Assembly: GCA_902547825.1 (NCBI GenBank)
Contig: CACCPE010000003.1
Location: forward strand, 24,239-88,238
Length of the DNA stretch: 64,000 nucleotides
Source: an uncultured Pelagibacteraceae bacterium
GTDB taxonomy: Bacteria > Pseudomonadota > Alphaproteobacteria > Pelagibacterales > Pelagibacteraceae
Direction: 5' to 3'
Shown here: positions 43,042 through 54,828 of the stretch, one piece after another
Numbering within the stretch: the stretch's first letter is position 1
Layout of the letters: every line of letters starts with the position of its first letter
Position numbers and translations under genes: made by a program
Notes under the pieces: model-generated
Told to the model about the DNA's origin: nothing
Databases searched by the model: none
The model's input: only the letters and a program-made list of their open reading frames with translations

Positions 43042-46000
43042 TTAATCAATTTCTCTCCAGTACTCTGTTTGAACTGTACCTGTCCCCCCGCTAGCTTGTG
43101 ATTTTCCAGTAATAATATTACCAGTAGATGTAAATCCTTCACCAATATTTTCTTTTGGTTTCCCAGCAATTCCGATGTAAAGATTATCTCCTTGTACAAC
43201 TACTTTTGATAAAACTCCTTTACCCATATTTATATTAAAAATAGATTGACCACATTTTGTATCGTAAGCACCTAATATCGCCTCTCCCTGATCACATTTT
43301 TTTAGACCCATAGCTGGTTGATAAATCGGGGCGTACACTCTATCTTTATCAATTGTTGTTTCAGCTGATAATTTTCTTTCATTTAAATCCACATACCAAC
43401 CTTTGTCAGAACTTGTAGGGCAGGTTGGAAAAGTTTTACATTTTTGGACATTTATTGTCGGATTAACCTGTCTAAAATTTGGAAAATCGATGTCTTTAAT
43501 TCCATAAAGTCTATTTTGTATTCCGTTTTGTTGCTCTTGTAAATGTTGAGTGTTCCCAGTTCCAAAATATAGCCAAAGATTACCATCGTTAAATGTCATC
43601 ACCGGTCTATTATACAAATATCGTCCATTTGTTGTATTTGACTCAGAGTCAAATAATGTTGTTTTTTCAAAAAGCGTTCCTTGATCTGTGAGATTTATTT
43701 TAGTTATCTTACCCTCTAAATCAGCAACGTATGCCATCGCACCAAAATAATTTGCTTTAGAGGTTCCATCTGGAGTTATCAAACTAATGTCTGCAGGAAC
43801 AGAGTTGACGATATCGTTAACATCAACAAGATCTAGTATCAAAATTCCTTGGGGAGCAGAGTCTAAAGTCAACTTTAGATTATTTATTATATCACCATTC
43901 TCGTCACCTGTGATCGCGTATTTTATACCTCCGTGACCAGACAGACGAGGCTTTACTATTTGAGTGTTATAAGACTGCAATCCCCAGTTTGCTAGGGAAA
44001 ATTCTGTTTGAGTATTATTTGGAACTAAACCCTTAACATAACTATGAATAATATTTGCTTGATCATATAGGTCAATCACTTTTATCAGTCTTCCCTCGTT
44101 TTCAATATCCATTACAAATACTGCTGAACCTACATCGGGATTAACACCACCATTATATCCCGCCCCAAACACTGCTACCCATTTTTGTTTTCCGTTAATT
44201 TTAAGTCTAATTATCCTTGGTGTTGACCAAGTTTCTCCAAGTTTTCTATAATCCAGGTCGCTTTGAATTACTCCTCCAGCGTATCCATAACTTTGAACAT
44301 TACCTGTATTATCCCAATGATGTATTTGTTTATCGATTGGATTATTTTCAATTGCAAATAACTGTTTTGGATTATTAGCATCAGTGATATCAAGTGCAAA
44401 TATACCATGCCCCCCTGCTCCAAGACCGCTTAATAAAATTGTTCTCCATCTTGGATTATTAACGTTATCATTTGGAGTATCATCTATAAATACATCTTTA
44501 ACTACCGGTGATCCATCTACTCCATATATCGGGTTAGTAGCGTTTGCTTTATTCGATGGTATTCTCTCTAAATTACCTAACACCATTGGCGGTATAAAAC
44601 CCCAAAGTTCCTCTCCGTCGGAAGTTTTAAATGCATGGAGGATCCCATTGTTAGCACCAGCATAAAGCAACTCTGTTCTGAATGCACAAGGACCTCCACA
44701 GCTTGATCCAGTTTTAAAGTTATTATAATTATTATCTATTCTATATTTAACTTCAGTCTTGTCATAATTTGAAGCACTGCTAGCAACCGTAGATGCCTCT
44801 GGAGGACCTACCACTATTAAGTTAGAGTGATAAATATCAGCTAATTTGTGAATGGTAGTTGTTGAGCTATCAGAATCCTGATCGTAGGTATCTAAACCCC
44901 TGATAAAATTTATAAGATTGTCCGTATCGTCATCTGTTGCTGCAGGCGTATTTGGAAAAATGAGACCTTTCAATTCAGATCTATTACTTGTCACAAAATT
45001 ATTTAATCCTGTCGTTGAAAGCCCAACAGTCCATATATTTCTACTATTTGAAGATTTATTATTTAATTTTGTAGCCGCATCCCACTGTTCAGGACCAAAT
45101 TGACCGTTTGTCTCTAACTTGTATTTTTTTACGCTTCCTTTCCATTGAATATTTTTTTCATATTCGAATGTCGATTGATAAACAAAATTATTTCTTTGAA
45201 CATCTGACATTACAGCTGGAGTTGTAAATGTTAATCTTCCTGAGATAGCTCGTTTTATGGCATCAGTTAATTGTGAAAGTAATTGGGCTTCATTATCTGC
45301 AAACATCGGAGCGTTTGTTTGTCCTGCAGTAGCTAGAGATTGGTAATTTGGTTGAGCGCCACTTCCAACATTAAATCCAACGGCAAAAGTTTTTATCTTC
45401 CCAACGTTACCTTTACCATCGCTAAGTCCCGCAGCCATTTGTCTAGCACGACTATTAACTTGGCCAGGCTGCATCCATTGACCATCACTTATAACAATTA
45501 GGTAGTTTGCCGAACATTCCAAAGTCCAATCTGGAACTCTACCATTGACAAATTGATTTCGCATTTTATTTAAGGCATTTTTTAAATCTGTCCCTCCATC
45601 AGCCCTTATTCCGTCTACATTAGTGAATATTCTACTAGCACCATTGGCGCTGATTGGTACTCTTATTCTAGTTCTAGAGTTTCTTGGACTCCCCCACTCC
45701 ATTAAGCCAAAATACGCTCCAGATGTAAGATCGGTATTAGACACAATTTTCTTAATCACTCTTTTAGCTGCAGCAATTCTCGTTCCACCTCCACCTGCCT
45801 CAATTAATACGTCACCGTTAATATCAAACTTTTTGAAAACAAGATTACGAAAGTCTGCGATATAAATATTATCGTTACTATCTATCTCAATTCCACGCGG
45901 AGCTCTAAACTGAGATGATGCTTGACCAAAACCTCCTACCAAAACAGTTTCTGCACAAGTAGTCATGTTTATTTTTATTACTTGATGCCGTCTATCAGAT

Positions 46001-46794
46001 AAATAATAGGCATTGCCTGCGCTATCCCAAGCTACATCAGTAGGGAAATTTGCATTACAAGTTCTAACACGATTAGAACTGTAAGGACTGTTTTCAGCAA
46101 TTAATTGATGGCCTGATCTTTTTGCCAACCTCAATTCTCTTTGACCATTATTAGCATACAGCAATTCAGAGCCGTTATTATTAAAGCTCATTCCCCAAGA
46201 CCAGTTATTTCCTCCACCTTCATTATTGTAAACGTTTCCTCCACTATTAATACTAAGATCTTTATTATAACTTGCTATTCTAAGATCACGGCCAGCACCT
46301 GCCACCCAAATGTATCCAGCTCCAGCAGATATTGCTCTTGGCCTTTCTCGTAGAGTGCCCATAACACTTGCGGTCGCTACACAATTTCCATTTAAATCTA
46401 ATTTTACAATTCTACCGTTTTGAGTGTCAGCAACGTATACGTGTCCGTCATACACTTCGAATTGAAATGCATTATACCATTGATTGCAACCCGAACCCGT
46501 TGAACCAAATCTAGTAAGTAAATTTCCATCTGCATCAAATTTTGCGATTCGATCACGCAAATATTCTAAAACATAAATATTTCCATTACTGTCAACATTG
46601 ACATCTAAAGGTAGTTCTAAAAAAGATGTTCTATCGGCTGGATTATCCATACTCCCGGAGTTATCTAGCATAATCATAATATTTGCTGGTAAATCAGATG
46701 TACCTGTACCCGGAGGGGGATTTTTGGCATATAAATTTGAAAAAAATAAAATACCTATGAATATATGGACTATTCTTTTTGTGAGTCTTCCCAT
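43042..46794 (-). CDS. pilY1: PilY1-like pilus tip/assembly protein with N-terminal VWA and embedded NHL-like repeats
   Basis: NIMIMLDNSGSM MIDAS; GGTDLKNAL...LIVISDGQW; PilY1 C-terminal propeller (LLYAGANNGILHAFKTSDGEELWGFIPP). Confidence 0.92.
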   Translation of the reverse strand: MGRLTKRIVHIFIGILFFSNLYAKNPPPGTGTSDLPANIMIMLDNSGSMDNPADRTSFLELPLDVNVDSNGNIYVLEYLRDRIAKFDADGNLLTRFGSTGSGCNQWYNAFQFEVYDGHVYVADTQNGRIVKLDLNGNCVATASVMGTLRERPRAISAGAGYIWVAGAGRDLRIASYNKDLSINSGGNVYNNEGGGNNWSWGMSFNNNGSELLYANNGQRELRLAKRSGHQLIAENSPYSSNRVRTCNANFPTDVAWDSAGNAYYLSDRRHQVIKINMTTCAETVLVGGFGQASSQFRAPRGIEIDSNDNIYIADFRNLVFKKFDINGDVLIEAGGGGTRIAAAKRVIKKIVSNTDLTSGAYFGLMEWGSPRNSRTRIRVPISANGASRIFTNVDGIRADGGTDLKNALNKMRNQFVNGRVPDWTLECSANYLIVISDGQWMQPGQVNSRARQMAAGLSDGKGNVGKIKTFAVGFNVGSGAQPNYQSLATAGQTNAPMFADNEAQLLSQLTDAIKRAISGRLTFTTPAVMSDVQRNNFVYQSTFEYEKNIQWKGSVKKYKLETNGQFGPEQWDAATKLNNKSSNSRNIWTVGLSTTGLNNFVTSNRSELKGLIFPNTPAATDDDTDNLINFIRGLDTYDQDSDSSTTTIHKLADIYHSNLIVVGPPEASTVASSASNYDKTEVKYRIDNNYNNFKTGSSCGGPCAFRTELLYAGANNGILHAFKTSDGEELWGFIPPMVLGNLERIPSNKANATNPIYGVDGSPVVKDVFIDDTPNDNVNNPRWRTILLSGLGAGGHGIFALDITDANNPKQLFAIENNPIDKQIHHWDNTGNVQSYGYAGGVIQSDLDYRKLGETWSTPRIIRLKINGKQKWVAVFGAGYNGGVNPDVGSAVFVMDIENEGRLIKVIDLYDQANIIHSYVKGLVPNNTQTEFSLANWGLQSYNTQIVKPRLSGHGGIKYAITGDENGDIINNLKLTLDSAPQGILILDLVDVNDIVNSVPADISLITPDGTSKANYFGAMAYVADLEGKITKINLTDQGTLFEKTTLFDSESNTTNGRYLYNRPVMTFNDGNLWLYFGTGNTQHLQEQQNGIQNRLYGIKDIDFPNFRQVNPTINVQKCKTFPTCPTSSDKGWYVDLNERKLSAETTIDKDRVYAPIYQPAMGLKKCDQGEAILGAYDTKCGQSIFNINMGKGVLSKVVVQGDNLYIGIAGKPKENIGEGFTSTGNIITGKSQASGGTGTVQTEYWREID

Positions 46795-49064: not shown

Positions 49065-49756
49065 CTGGAAGTTGATGAGTTATATTTAAATAAATTTACA
49101 TTTAATGAACGATCCATTTGCAAAACATATCTATTATCTGCAGTTGAAGAATTGTTACATTTTGGACCGCTTCCACTACCACGATAATGATCAGATGTAT
49201 TTGATCTTGAGCAAATCATTATGAAAGCATCTTGGTTGTTTCCATTATTATCCATAACCGTAAAATGATTTGTGCCAGGATCAATTATAGCATTTTTTGA
49301 TAAAAACATCCTCGAATTCATCCAGTGCCAAGTATCTCCACTCCATTGAAATTGTCCTGAATTCTCTTTTACCCAATTGGAGTAATCAATTGTTTCCAAA
49401 CAACATGGACCCATCTTATAATGATTTAAATAACTCTTTCCGCCAGTGTTTCCATCGTTTCTTCTTGTCCAACCAGGTGCAGGAACCTTCATTTGAGTAG
49501 CATATTCTTCTTGTGTCATATGCCATAGTTCCATATTCGTGTAAAAACCAATTACAATAATAGGATATTTACCAGAATTTACTTCATCTTTTCTATCCTC
49601 GATGTATTGCACAAGTCTATTCACCTCTTTTTTCACCTCTCTTTCAGTTAACCATTGATCTACTTTTGGATAACCAAATACTGCCAAAACGGCAAAAATT
49701 GTTATAACAACTAATAATTCTATAATTGAAAATGCTTTATTGTTTCGCATCAACAT
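49046..49756 (-). CDS. GspH/FimT-like pseudopilin
   Basis: KAFSIIELLVVITIFAVLAVFGYPKVDQWLTEREVKKEVNRLVQYIEDRK. Confidence 0.8.
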   Translation of the reverse strand: MLMRNNKAFSIIELLVVITIFAVLAVFGYPKVDQWLTEREVKKEVNRLVQYIEDRKDEVNSGKYPIIVIGFYTNMELWHMTQEEYATQMKVPAPGWTRRNDGNTGGKSYLNHYKMGPCCLETIDYSNWVKENSGQFQWSGDTWHWMNSRMFLSKNAIIDPGTNHFTVMDNNGNNQDAFIMICSRSNTSDHYRGSGSGPKCNNSSTADNRYVLQMDRSLNVNLFKYNSSTSRWIKTR

Positions 49757-50747
49757 TACTTATTTTTCCTGATTGAACTAAGTTTTCAATTGATTTTTCC
49801 ATCGAGATCATACCATCACGTGTTCCTGTTTGCATAACACTTGGTATTTGATGAATTTTTTTCTCACGAATTAAATTTTTTACTGGAGAATTACAAACCA
49901 TTATTTCAAAAGCTCCAACCCTTCCTTTACCATCAGTTGTTTTGAATAATTTTTGTGTAATCACCATTCTCAAAGAGTCTGCAAGCTGAGCTTGGATCTG
50001 AGCTTGTTGTTCTGATGGAAATACGTCTATAATTCTATTTATGGTATTTGGAGCGCCACTTGTGTGCAAAGTACCAAAAACTAAATGACCTGTTTCTGCT
50101 GCTGTTAAAGCCATACTAATAGTTTCAATGTCTCTAAGTTCACCAACTAAAATAACATCTGGATCTTCTCTAAGCGCACTTTTTAAAGCTGTAGAAAAAC
50201 TTTCAGTTTGTTTACCAACTTCTCTGTGAGAGACAATACTTTTTTTATCTTTATGAATAAACTCAACAGGGTCTTCAATGGTAATAATGTTGGCTTGTCT
50301 TGTTTCATTAATTTGATTTATTATTGACGCTAAAGTTGTGGACTTACCTGAACCTGTTGGCCCGGTAACCAGCACTAAACCTTTATGCATGTCTACGATA
50401 CTGTACATTACAGGTGGTAAATTCAGAGTTTCCATATTTAAAATAGTTGTCTCTACTTTACGTAATACTACAGCGGGCCCTTGCAGTGTTTGGTAGAAAT
50501 TGGCTCTAAACCTCATGTTTTCAAGCATAAAACCACTATCTAACTCGTTTTTTTGTTTAAAAAGCTCAACATCGGATTTTGAGCAATATTTTTCTAAAAG
50601 GTTAAGAATATCGTCTTTTTTAACCTTTTCTTCCTCTAAAATGACTATTTCTCCCATTAATCTGTAGGAAAATGGACAATTCGCTCTTAAGTGGAAATCA
50701 GATACTTTTGGGTTATCTTTTACGACATTAACAATTTTACTAATCAT
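49737..50747 (-). CDS. pilT: Type IV pilus retraction ATPase
   Basis: LVTGPTGSGKSTTLASIINQIN; EDPVEFIHKDKKSIVSHREVG; LREDPDVILVGELRD; TLHTSGA. Confidence 0.93.
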   Translation of the reverse strand: MISKIVNVVKDNPKVSDFHLRANCPFSYRLMGEIVILEEEKVKKDDILNLLEKYCSKSDVELFKQKNELDSGFMLENMRFRANFYQTLQGPAVVLRKVETTILNMETLNLPPVMYSIVDMHKGLVLVTGPTGSGKSTTLASIINQINETRQANIITIEDPVEFIHKDKKSIVSHREVGKQTESFSTALKSALREDPDVILVGELRDIETISMALTAAETGHLVFGTLHTSGAPNTINRIIDVFPSEQQAQIQAQLADSLRMVITQKLFKTTDGKGRVGAFEIMVCNSPVKNLIREKKIHQIPSVMQTGTRDGMISMEKSIENLVQSGKISNVDAKQ

Positions 50748-50805: not shown

Positions 50806-51130
50806 TTTGTGTTAGAATAATTAAATTTAGCTATTCTAACACAAAATTTATAAACTATTTATTAAATTTTATCAATATTAAAAAATTGTTGATTTTAATG
50901 ACTTTTTTAATTAAGAGTTTAAAAATTTAGTAATAATAAATTTTTAAATCTATCTAACACAAAATAAATTTTAATCTAACACAAGATTTAAGTATTCTAA
51001 CACAAAATAAGATTAAAATTTAATAACTATAACACAAAATAAAAGCTTATAATTCCATTATTTTAGAGCATTAATTATTATAACACAAAATAATTGACAA
51101 AATTGTGTTAGAATTGTATTATAACACAAA
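50806..51130. repeat. Dispersed array of nine TAACACAAA elements (extended form ATTMTAACACAAAATAA)
   Basis: Direct cores at 50837-50845, 50955-50963, 50977-50985 (TAACACAAG), 50998-51006, 51030-51038, 51081-51089, 51122-51130; inverted cores at 50806-50814 and 51102-51110 (TAACACAAT). Confidence 0.93.
51094..51122 (+). promoter_or_regulatory. Putative sigma70 promoter of the pilMN fusion operon
   Basis: TTGACA (51094-51099)-N17-TATTAT (51117-51122); AAGGAG SD at 51136-51141; ATG at 51152. Confidence 0.75.
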
Positions 51131-51151: not shown

Positions 51152-53245
51152 ATGACTAATATTATTTCAACTAAAGATGGAAGATTGCACATCTATATAA
51201 GGCAAGATAAATACAAGGGAAAGTTGAAATCTGAGAACTGGGTAGGCAGAACCTTCTACAAAGGTAAACAAAAAGTTGTATCCTCAGGTACTACGGACTT
51301 AGAGGAAGCAAAAAAAATTTTAGAACAATGGTATGACGATTTAATTTCAGGAAAATTAGATAATAATACTGATAATGATTTAAATAATAATAATACTGTC
51401 CATAATCAAAATATTGAAACATCAAAAACTTCAGAAAAAGTATCAGATACTAAACCAGAAATAACAAAAGAAAATCAATTACAAAATACTTCTGTTTCTG
51501 CAACACACGAAGAAAAGAAAAAAAAGTTATTCAATTTTGATTTATCTTCTTTAAAGGATAAATTCTCTTTAAAAAAAAATAATCAAGATAATAAAGAAAA
51601 AAATAAAAATAAAAAAATTGATTTATCTAAATATAAAAAATTATTTTCAGAGAAAATAAGTAAAGCGAATGTAGCAGGAGAGGAAATAGCTGGAATAGAC
51701 ATAAGCGAAGATTCAATAAAAATAGCCCAACTAAGCAAAAAAGATAATGATTGGATATTAGAAAAAATTTCTCTGCGATTACTTGATAAAAACAAAACGG
51801 CTGACGGGGTTATTAATGCTAAAGACTATGTATCTGAAGAATTAAAATTAGCTATGGCAAACGCAAAGGTTTCAACAACTAACGTTGCTATCTCAATTCC
51901 GGTTACTAGTGCAATCATAAGAGTAGTGACAAGTCCTTTAATGTCTGATGATGAACTTCAAAAAGCTATTGAAACAGACTCTCTTTGGGAGAATTTAGTT
52001 CAGCTTACAGATGACTTGAACGAATATTCTATTTTTCATCAAGTAATTAGCAGAAATAATAAAACAAATACTATGGAGATACTTTTCGTAGCTTCAAAAC
52101 TAAGTGATGTAAATGCTTACTCATCAATAGTAAAAAAAGCTGGGCTAAATCCAGTGATAATGGATGTAAAATGTTTCACACTTAAAAACGCTTTTGATAA
52201 TTCATTTAAAATTGAAAATAAAGCTAACAACGCTCTTTTAGAAATTGGAACTGAAGATAACTATCTTATTATTGTTCATGATAATATTCCAATCATCACT
52301 GATATATTTTTAAGACCAAATGAAAAAGATCTTTTAGGCCAATTCGATGGAAGCATTCAAAATACTGACACCGAAAGTGTAGTAAGAAGATATTGTATGC
52401 AGCTTAAACAAGCATTAAGTGATTATGAGAGTAAATACTCTTCAAAAATAAATAATATGAAGATTGTGAGCTCTCTTGGAAATATTGAAGAATTAATTCC
52501 TTTATTTAAAAAAAACTTATTAAATACTGGTCTTCAAGTTTTTGATCCACTAAATGAGATACAAATACCAGCTTACAATCAAGAAAAAACAAATTTGAGA
52601 AATAGATCTATATATACCTCAGTTCTTGGTTTAGCTTATAGAAAACTAGATGTTTTTGGGTATTATAAATTTGTTACGGCAGTTAAGAATATAAACCTTT
52701 TGCCTAATCGAGAGTCGCTGAAAAGACAAAGCAAATTAAAATTCCTTTCAGGTTTTGCGATGAAAGGGTTAGTAGGCGGAATAGCTGCTTTATATTTATT
52801 TCTGATTGGATTTTCCTTTTTTCAAATCAGTACAAATAAAAGCAAACTTGCCAATGAAACAAATATACAACAAGAATTTAATCTTGTTAGCGCAGAGCAC
52901 AAAAAACTTACAAAAACAGTTAATGATATGAAAAAGGCTCTTAAACTTGGAGATATGGTAAATTCAAATCAAACTGTTTCATACAGGGCGTTGGCTCAAA
53001 TTACTAGAAGTGTTCCTCAAAGAGTTCAGTTTACAGATCTTAATTTTAATGGGAATAAAGAAATAATTATATCTGGTTTAGCTTTTTCTGACCAAGATAT
53101 AATTAACTTTATATCTAATTTGAATGGTAAGGACTTAATCGATCAAGCTTCTCTAAAAGCAATGAATGTACCAAAGGGTAAAAATGATTTACAGTCTGCA
53201 AATAACAAAAAAGGATTTACGATTTTATGTAAATTAAAGATATGA
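51152..53245 (+). CDS. Fusion protein: integrase-arm-like putative DNA-binding domain + PilM + PilN
   Basis: aa 1-70 YIRQDKYKGKLKSENWVGRTFYKGKQKVVSSGTTDLEEAKKILEQWYDDL; Asn/Lys-rich linker; PilM (IAGIDISEDSIKIAQLS...); PilN (NINLLPNRESLKRQ, TM, periplasmic domain). Confidence 0.85.
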   Translation: MTNIISTKDGRLHIYIRQDKYKGKLKSENWVGRTFYKGKQKVVSSGTTDLEEAKKILEQWYDDLISGKLDNNTDNDLNNNNTVHNQNIETSKTSEKVSDTKPEITKENQLQNTSVSATHEEKKKKLFNFDLSSLKDKFSLKKNNQDNKEKNKNKKIDLSKYKKLFSEKISKANVAGEEIAGIDISEDSIKIAQLSKKDNDWILEKISLRLLDKNKTADGVINAKDYVSEELKLAMANAKVSTTNVAISIPVTSAIIRVVTSPLMSDDELQKAIETDSLWENLVQLTDDLNEYSIFHQVISRNNKTNTMEILFVASKLSDVNAYSSIVKKAGLNPVIMDVKCFTLKNAFDNSFKIENKANNALLEIGTEDNYLIIVHDNIPIITDIFLRPNEKDLLGQFDGSIQNTDTESVVRRYCMQLKQALSDYESKYSSKINNMKIVSSLGNIEELIPLFKKNLLNTGLQVFDPLNEIQIPAYNQEKTNLRNRSIYTSVLGLAYRKLDVFGYYKFVTAVKNINLLPNRESLKRQSKLKFLSGFAMKGLVGGIAALYLFLIGFSFFQISTNKSKLANETNIQQEFNLVSAEHKKLTKTVNDMKKALKLGDMVNSNQTVSYRALAQITRSVPQRVQFTDLNFNGNKEIIISGLAFSDQDIINFISNLNGKDLIDQASLKAMNVPKGKNDLQSANNKKGFTILCKLKI

Positions 53246-53880: not shown

Positions 53881-54286
53881 AAAAATTTTATTAGTTATCT
53901 TTTCGTTATTTCTTTTCACAAACCCAATCATCGCTGAAGATAAAAAAGATCTTATAGATGAAGAGCTTCCTGCAGTTAATCCGTTTCTTGGCGGTGGATC
54001 AGTTGGCGGTTCCGGTGTAGATGGTTCAGGTCCAGTTGGGGTATCTCAATCTAATAATTCGGCATCACTTAAGAATATGAAATTAAATGGTGTAGTAATA
54101 GGTGAAAGTAAAAGATTCGCAATTTTCACCTTCTCGGATGGAAGAACAGCGAGATACGAAGAGGATACAATAATCTCAAATGATTTTATGATTTTAGATA
54201 TATTCCCAGATCGCATATTTATAAAGATGAATGAAGTGGAATACTCGCTTGATTTAAAAAATAACCTTGTAAAGGCTGAGGGATGA
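53867..54286 (+). CDS. pilP: PilP-like pilus assembly protein
   Basis: Signal peptide, small beta-domain (MKLNGVVIGESKRFAIFTFSDGRTARYEEDTII), operon position. Confidence 0.75.
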   Translation: MNISKKILLVIFSLFLFTNPIIAEDKKDLIDEELPAVNPFLGGGSVGGSGVDGSGPVGVSQSNNSASLKNMKLNGVVIGESKRFAIFTFSDGRTARYEEDTIISNDFMILDIFPDRIFIKMNEVEYSLDLKNNLVKAEG

Positions 54287-54828
54287 ATTTGAAATTTTTC
54301 AACATAATATCTTTGATAGCAATTTTAATGTTAACTTCTAACTGTGCTTCAACAAAGAAAAAATCAGTTCATGGTGAGGAACCTTTAATAGATCCCTCAA
54401 AAGTTGTTGTTGAAGGAAGTAAGGATATGGAAGAAAAAGTAAAATATGGACCAAAACCTTATGAAACTGAGTTTGACCCCACGGCAAACAAAAGAAAAAC
54501 AATTACGACTGAACAAGTAAGAAACTACGTAACAATCTCTAACGAATATGAAAATTTAAAACAAAATGTAAGCATTAATTTTAACGGAGTTGACTTTAGA
54601 GACGCAATGGACTCTCTCGCCGACATAGGCGGTATTAATATTATAGTAGGCGAAGAAGTTAGCGGCACAGTCACTGCAAAACTACAAGATGTTGGGTGGG
54701 ATGTTGCCTTTCAAACTCTTTTAGACATGAAAACTCTAGGGGCAACAAAAAAAGGTTTATTTGGTTTACTAGATAAAGTTATCAAAACTTCATCAAGAAT
54801 AGCGATCACAATTTCTGAAAAAATTTAA
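54283..54828 (+). pseudogene. pilQ: Truncated PilQ-like secretin: lipoprotein N-terminus and one STN/N-domain only
   Basis: SNCASTKKK lipobox; VSINFNGVDFRDAMDSLADIGGINIIVGEEVSGTVTAKLQDVGWDVAFQTLLDMKTLGA, then stop; no secretin barrel in any frame. Confidence 0.6.

Follow-up and report, generated by a model that had tools for sequence, protein, structure and literature searches.

A putative integrase-type arm-binding domain in a SAR11 PilMN pilus platform protein and the repeat array upstream of its gene

The pilMN locus

The sequence analyzed is a stretch of 64,000 nucleotides (here, the window) from the genome of an uncultured SAR11 bacterium of the Pelagibacteraceae (0.89-Mb assembly, 71% complete). 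It contains a gene encoding a PilM-PilN fusion, with PilM_2 at aa 181 to 379 (E = 2e-23) and PilN at aa 614 to 694 (E = 2e-9) in Pfam searches of the open reading frame (ORF) 51152-53245 (Table 1). These two domains, together with the position inside a pil gene cluster, identify the product as a type IV pilus PilM/PilN protein. It resembles PilM and PilN of type IV pili in its domains, its INLLP motif (aa 514), and the gene order pilMNOPQ but differs from them in being a fusion, in carrying an extra putative DNA-binding domain plus linker, and in scoring 102.7 bits against the NCBIfam model TIGR01175 (pilM), under the model's cut-off of 133. The full-length structure model (mean pLDDT 66) consists of the N-terminal domain, a disordered stretch of ~100 residues (76% N/K/D/E/S/T/Q over aa 70 to 165), the PilM fold, a membrane helix placed after the PilN-type INLLP motif, and the PilN domain.

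Downstream, pilQ is cut at about position 54743 and continues in frame into the 3′ end of coq7 (window positions 54283 to 54828), a junction that is either an amplification/assembly chimera or a real deletion; in a close relative, a 517-aa pilQ is followed by pilB, pilC, and pilins. A PilY1-like protein (43042 to 46794, minus strand) matches NHL-repeat families in its N-terminal part (ScyF, E = 1e-20). PMC12636525 reports type IV pilus genes next to an adhesin in SAR11, in passages that make no mention of such a PilM domain or array. The open-licence literature searched yielded no paper describing the array or a DNA-binding domain in a PilM, and no SAR11 pilus regulator.

Table 1. Features of the pilMN locus (window coordinates) and of the related genomic island
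Feature	Position	Strand	Remarks
PilT-like ATPase gene, divergent	49737..50747	-	far side of array; T2SSE E 1e-48
Array site 1	50807..50817	-	TAACACAA core on minus strand
Array site 2	50834..50844	+	TAACACAA core
Second conserved element TGTTGATTTTAATGACTTTTTT	50887..50909	+	in gaps of array
Array site 3	50952..50962	+	TAACACAA core
Array site 4	50974..50984	+	TAACACAA core
Array site 5	50995..51005	+	TAACACAA core
Array site 6	51027..51037	+	TAACACAA core
Array site 7	51078..51088	+	TAACACAA core
Predicted pilMN promoter	51094..51122	+	TTGACA-17-TATTAT, 11/12; same geometry in 6/6 close relatives
Array site 8	51103..51113	-	TAACACAA core; within promoter spacer
Array site 9	51119..51129	+	TAACACAA core; over -10 box
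pilMN fusion gene	51152..53245	+	697 aa; PilM_2 and PilN domains
Putative integrase-type arm-binding domain, aa 4-66	51161..51349	+	61% identity to island integrase N terminus; AlphaFold pLDDT 86
Disordered Lys/Asn-rich linker, aa 71-173	51362..51670	+	pLDDT <50
Membrane helix, aa 539-557	52766..52822	+	hydropathy and structure model
tRNA-Leu island	L120:4425-9480 (L119: similar span)		~5 kb

The N-terminal domain

According to the original prediction, the ORF opens with about 70 residues resembling the N-terminal arm/AP2-like domains of tyrosine recombinases, and these residues, ahead of a linker and PilM, would form a sequence-specific DNA-binding module. The ORF starts with exactly the residues given there, and the Pfam matches bear out this order of parts. 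The folded portion covers aa ~4 to 66, and the end first given for the domain, 51367, falls in the linker. Pfam found no Phage_integrase catalytic domain with a Tyr nucleophile in the ORF, and the protein is not a whole tyrosine recombinase.

A PilM match was detected in 123 of 398 genomes of the order. Conservation of the segment, anticipated in the prediction, was found in ~60 of these 123 genomes; another ~55 match PilMN only from aa ~120 to 165 onward. Across 21 proteins with overall identities of 45 to 92%, 33 of the first 62 residues of the domain are invariant. AlphaFold, run with 30 relatives, confidently predicts the expected sheet-plus-helix fold, with strands followed by a C-terminal helix (E4-7, E12-21, E24-36, E39-44, H50-66). 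At L022, L027, L033, and other Pelagibacter loci the ORF extends ~70 to 110 residues upstream of the domain in acidic, low-complexity sequence, and the true start of these ORFs is uncertain.

Domain libraries returned little. The Pfam arm-binding and AP2 models matched neither PilM aa 1 to 70, where nothing was significant, nor the N terminus of the island integrase described below; NCBIfam gave nothing usable on the domain, and a PDB sequence search gave no match. With Foldseek, nothing in the PDB matched significantly (the best structure, at E = 0.19, is unrelated), and a viral library gave only weak matches, including an intron endonuclease and integrases. Because of this, the family is assigned from sequence homology, and the fold serves as supporting evidence: the proposed arm-domain homology holds by sequence and agrees with the predicted fold, and no significant match to solved arm/AP2 structures emerged.

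Integrase relatives and the tRNA-Leu islands

The domain shares 39/64 identities (61%) with the N terminus of a SAR11 island tyrosine integrase, so the recombinase-like pattern noticed originally exceeds chance. Tyrosine recombinases of 418 to 423 aa with a Phage_integrase domain (Pfam) and an N terminus ~60% identical to the PilM domain are encoded in two genomes, G108 and G244, and a search of 319 Pelagibacter genomes for further members of this integrase branch recovered the same two only. Profile searches of 387 genomes of the class and 399 of the phylum gave two weak matches outside SAR11 (E = 8e-4 and 3e-3), both tyrosine recombinase N termini; a further match in G062 (E = 0.008) was attributed to chance because it lies in a phosphoribosyltransferase-like protein. 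Phage records yielded nothing convincing for the integrase or the domain, and viral contigs yielded none. In the genome under study (71% complete) the domain is present once, and the integrase query matched only the pilMN ORF.

The tRNA-Leu island was found in 2 of ~400 SAR11 genomes and encodes the tyrosine integrase, a serine-recombinase-like ORF, and small ORFs. In both islands the boundary is a TTTTGAGT repeat within tRNA-Leu; one half of the tRNA lies at each end, and the interior contains a complete tRNA-Leu(CAA). TTGTGTAAGA(G), whose complement CTCTTACACAA is one base off the pil array word, is repeated in tandem just inside both ends, and the TAACACAA word also occurs just before the island integrase start. 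These repeats near both ends lie where arm-type sites belong, and they are probably such sites.

The upstream repeat array

The region separating pilT from pilMN contains TAACACAA as an exact match nine times within 323 bp (seven on the plus and two on the minus strand), as (C/T)TCTAACACAA-like words; the other 63.6 kb of the window contains two, compared with 3.6 in whole-window shuffles. The core letters were fixed by the search itself, but the 303 copies, from 42 non-redundant upstream regions, agree beyond the core and give an extended consensus, (C)TCTAACACAA: the base preceding the core is C in 93%, the next T in 99%, and the next C in 69%. Neighboring copies are mostly 20 to 23 bp apart, i.e., two helical turns. 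In two sets of relatives the sites are 93% and 90% identical and their flanks 52% and 49%, which indicates purifying selection on the sites.

Array and domain occur together. Among 106 pilM loci, all 51 domain-positive ones counted (those with at least 350 bp upstream) have 3 to 9 array copies, and 0 of 48 domain-negative loci have any. One genome, G350, has two pilM loci (L018 and L118) and the array only at the domain-positive one; its second locus, with neither domain nor array, has an internal stop codon. On a PilM-core tree built without the domain (a quick method, with long branches flagged), the domain history amounts to three changes: the domain is present in a basal clade and in a 45-row clade, and absent from a 40-row group except for one row (L024). 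The array follows each of these changes. Since the array adjoins the domain and may simply be gained and lost with it, without any function, we place more weight on the integrase parallel and on the selection acting on the sites.

Across 30 whole genomes, clusters of the word are confined to the pil locus where the domain is present. A genome-wide regulon was rejected, as other copies are scattered singles at about control level, as was a DNA uptake signal, because copies are not distributed genome-wide and the predicted location of the domain is the cytoplasm. The array precedes pilMN in three gene orders, the upstream neighbor being a divergent pilT, a codirectional pilY1, or other genes, and this constancy points to autoregulation.

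In the window's clade, the promoter reads TTGACA-17-TATTAT or TATTGT, with one array site fixed in the spacer (6/6) and another over the -10 box in 5/6. Across all clades, site-promoter overlap (21/38 versus 24 expected) is not above chance. The same applies to overlap with consensus promoters in Pelagibacter, where looping, a roadblock, or tethering would hence be possible. A second conserved element, in the form TGTTGATTT, was found in 31/42 regions versus 0.5 expected and may be a site for a bending protein; a strict IHF consensus, WATCAANNNNTTR, was not enriched between sites (2 found versus 4.7 expected). Written as TGTTGATTTTATTGACTTTTTT, this second element lies in the array gaps both in the window (50887 to 50909) and in relatives.

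Discussion

The explanation we favor, and consider probable, is that a captured integrase arm-binding domain and its array regulate the pilus operon from a membrane-anchored protein, most likely by repression. Its basis lies in sequence comparisons: the homology to integrase N termini, the predicted fold, the array itself and the near-identity of its word to the island repeats, the domain-array co-occurrence, the purifying selection on the sites, and the promoter overlap in the window's clade. Against it are the finding of only two related integrases, the adjacency of array and domain with only three changes on the tree, a promoter overlap no greater than chance across all clades, and the lack of a significant PDB fold match. 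The originally proposed DNA-binding module on a pilus platform protein is strengthened by the integrase homology and by a direct-repeat array that tracks the domain, and finds no backing in the Pfam arm/AP2 models.

The first ~66 residues of SAR11 PilMN would thus be a tyrosine recombinase arm-binding domain captured by a pilus platform protein, and the upstream (C)TCTAACACAA copies its cognate sites, retained as an operator array. Compared with the arm-binding domains of lambda Int, Tn916 Int, and the SAR11 island integrase, the domain shares the predicted strands-plus-helix order and the short repeated recognition words, and its sequence is close to that of the island integrase; unlike those recombinases, it is fused to a pilus platform protein, lacks a catalytic domain, and has its array at a promoter instead of an attachment site. 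A single capture may account for both parts, an integrase gene with arm words just upstream having donated domain and array by fusion to pilM; such a one-event origin would fit the island layout.

That the domain binds the array DNA is very likely, and as the sites are two helical turns apart, binding is probably cooperative. The PilN helix would anchor PilMN in the inner membrane, leaving the domain on a flexible cytoplasmic linker of ~100 residues from which it would cover its own promoter, so that unassembled or excess PilMN would lower pilMNOPQ transcription. Repression is a somewhat likely outcome. There is precedent in IntS of KplE1, which represses its own promoter via arm sites, one of them over the -10 box (PMC2951348). 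In both systems arm-type words cover the promoter from which the protein itself is expressed, including its -10 box, and a bound PilMN domain would similarly exclude RNA polymerase; here, however, the overlap is consistent in the window's clade and not across all clades, the regulated protein is a membrane-anchored structural component, and repression is predicted. Because PilMN is such a platform protein, repression would report its amount, perhaps the unassembled amount. The result would be feedback control of pilus assembly, probably a reuse of integrase autorepression.

Membrane-anchored transcription factors such as ToxR and CadC are single-pass membrane proteins whose N-terminal DNA-binding domain lies in the cytoplasm. 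PilMN likewise is a membrane protein with a putative DNA-binding domain at its cytoplasmic N terminus, but the domain is not a winged helix, and what anchors it is part of a machine rather than a dedicated sensor. The fuller proposition, that a structural component of the pilus platform is itself a sequence-specific transcription regulator, through which the PilMN pool or assembly state is read at the pil promoter from the membrane by a domain that, like the operator words, comes from a mobile-element integrase, we judge to be evenly balanced.

Membrane anchoring and the long flexible linker would also suit a protein whose binding to the array mainly holds the pil locus, or the nucleoid, at the membrane pilus platform, with a role in localization, cotranslational insertion, or segregation and little effect on transcription. 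PilM is actin-like, and an array next to an actin-like protein recalls ParMRC; moreover, 5 to 9 sites exceed the need of a simple operator, and promoter overlap is not general across clades. Nevertheless, that overlap is clear in the window's clade, and a single locus per genome, beside the gene for the protein itself, is where an operator would normally lie, which makes positioning an unlikely main function. Less likely still, some other, unnamed regulator might bind the array while the domain has a different role or is a relic. DNA binding by the domain is deduced from sequence, and related words flank only the two known integrases, both of which leave room for another binder; yet domain and array are both under selection and strictly associated (51/51 versus 0/48), the array word nearly equals that of the sister integrase, and the genome has no second copy of the domain. 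A role in element defense, with the domain competing for arm sites against incoming integrases and thereby restricting tRNA-Leu island integration, might be suggested by the one-base difference between island and array words and by the rarity of the islands. It is highly improbable, since the domain-positive genome G108 carries an island and regulation is the better explanation for an array that keeps its position and overlaps the promoter.

SAR11 bacteria, which have streamlined genomes, rank among the ocean's most abundant cells, and little is known of the way in which pili and other costly surface machines are controlled in them. Autoregulation by PilMN would supply a candidate pilus regulator, an operator word, and a testable mechanism, and would account for the conservation of an AT-rich intergenic region among dozens of species. 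It would also be a clear case of a cellular machine reusing an integrase arm-binding domain. In many SAR11 bacteria, then, the pilus machinery probably governs its own genes or is tethered to them.
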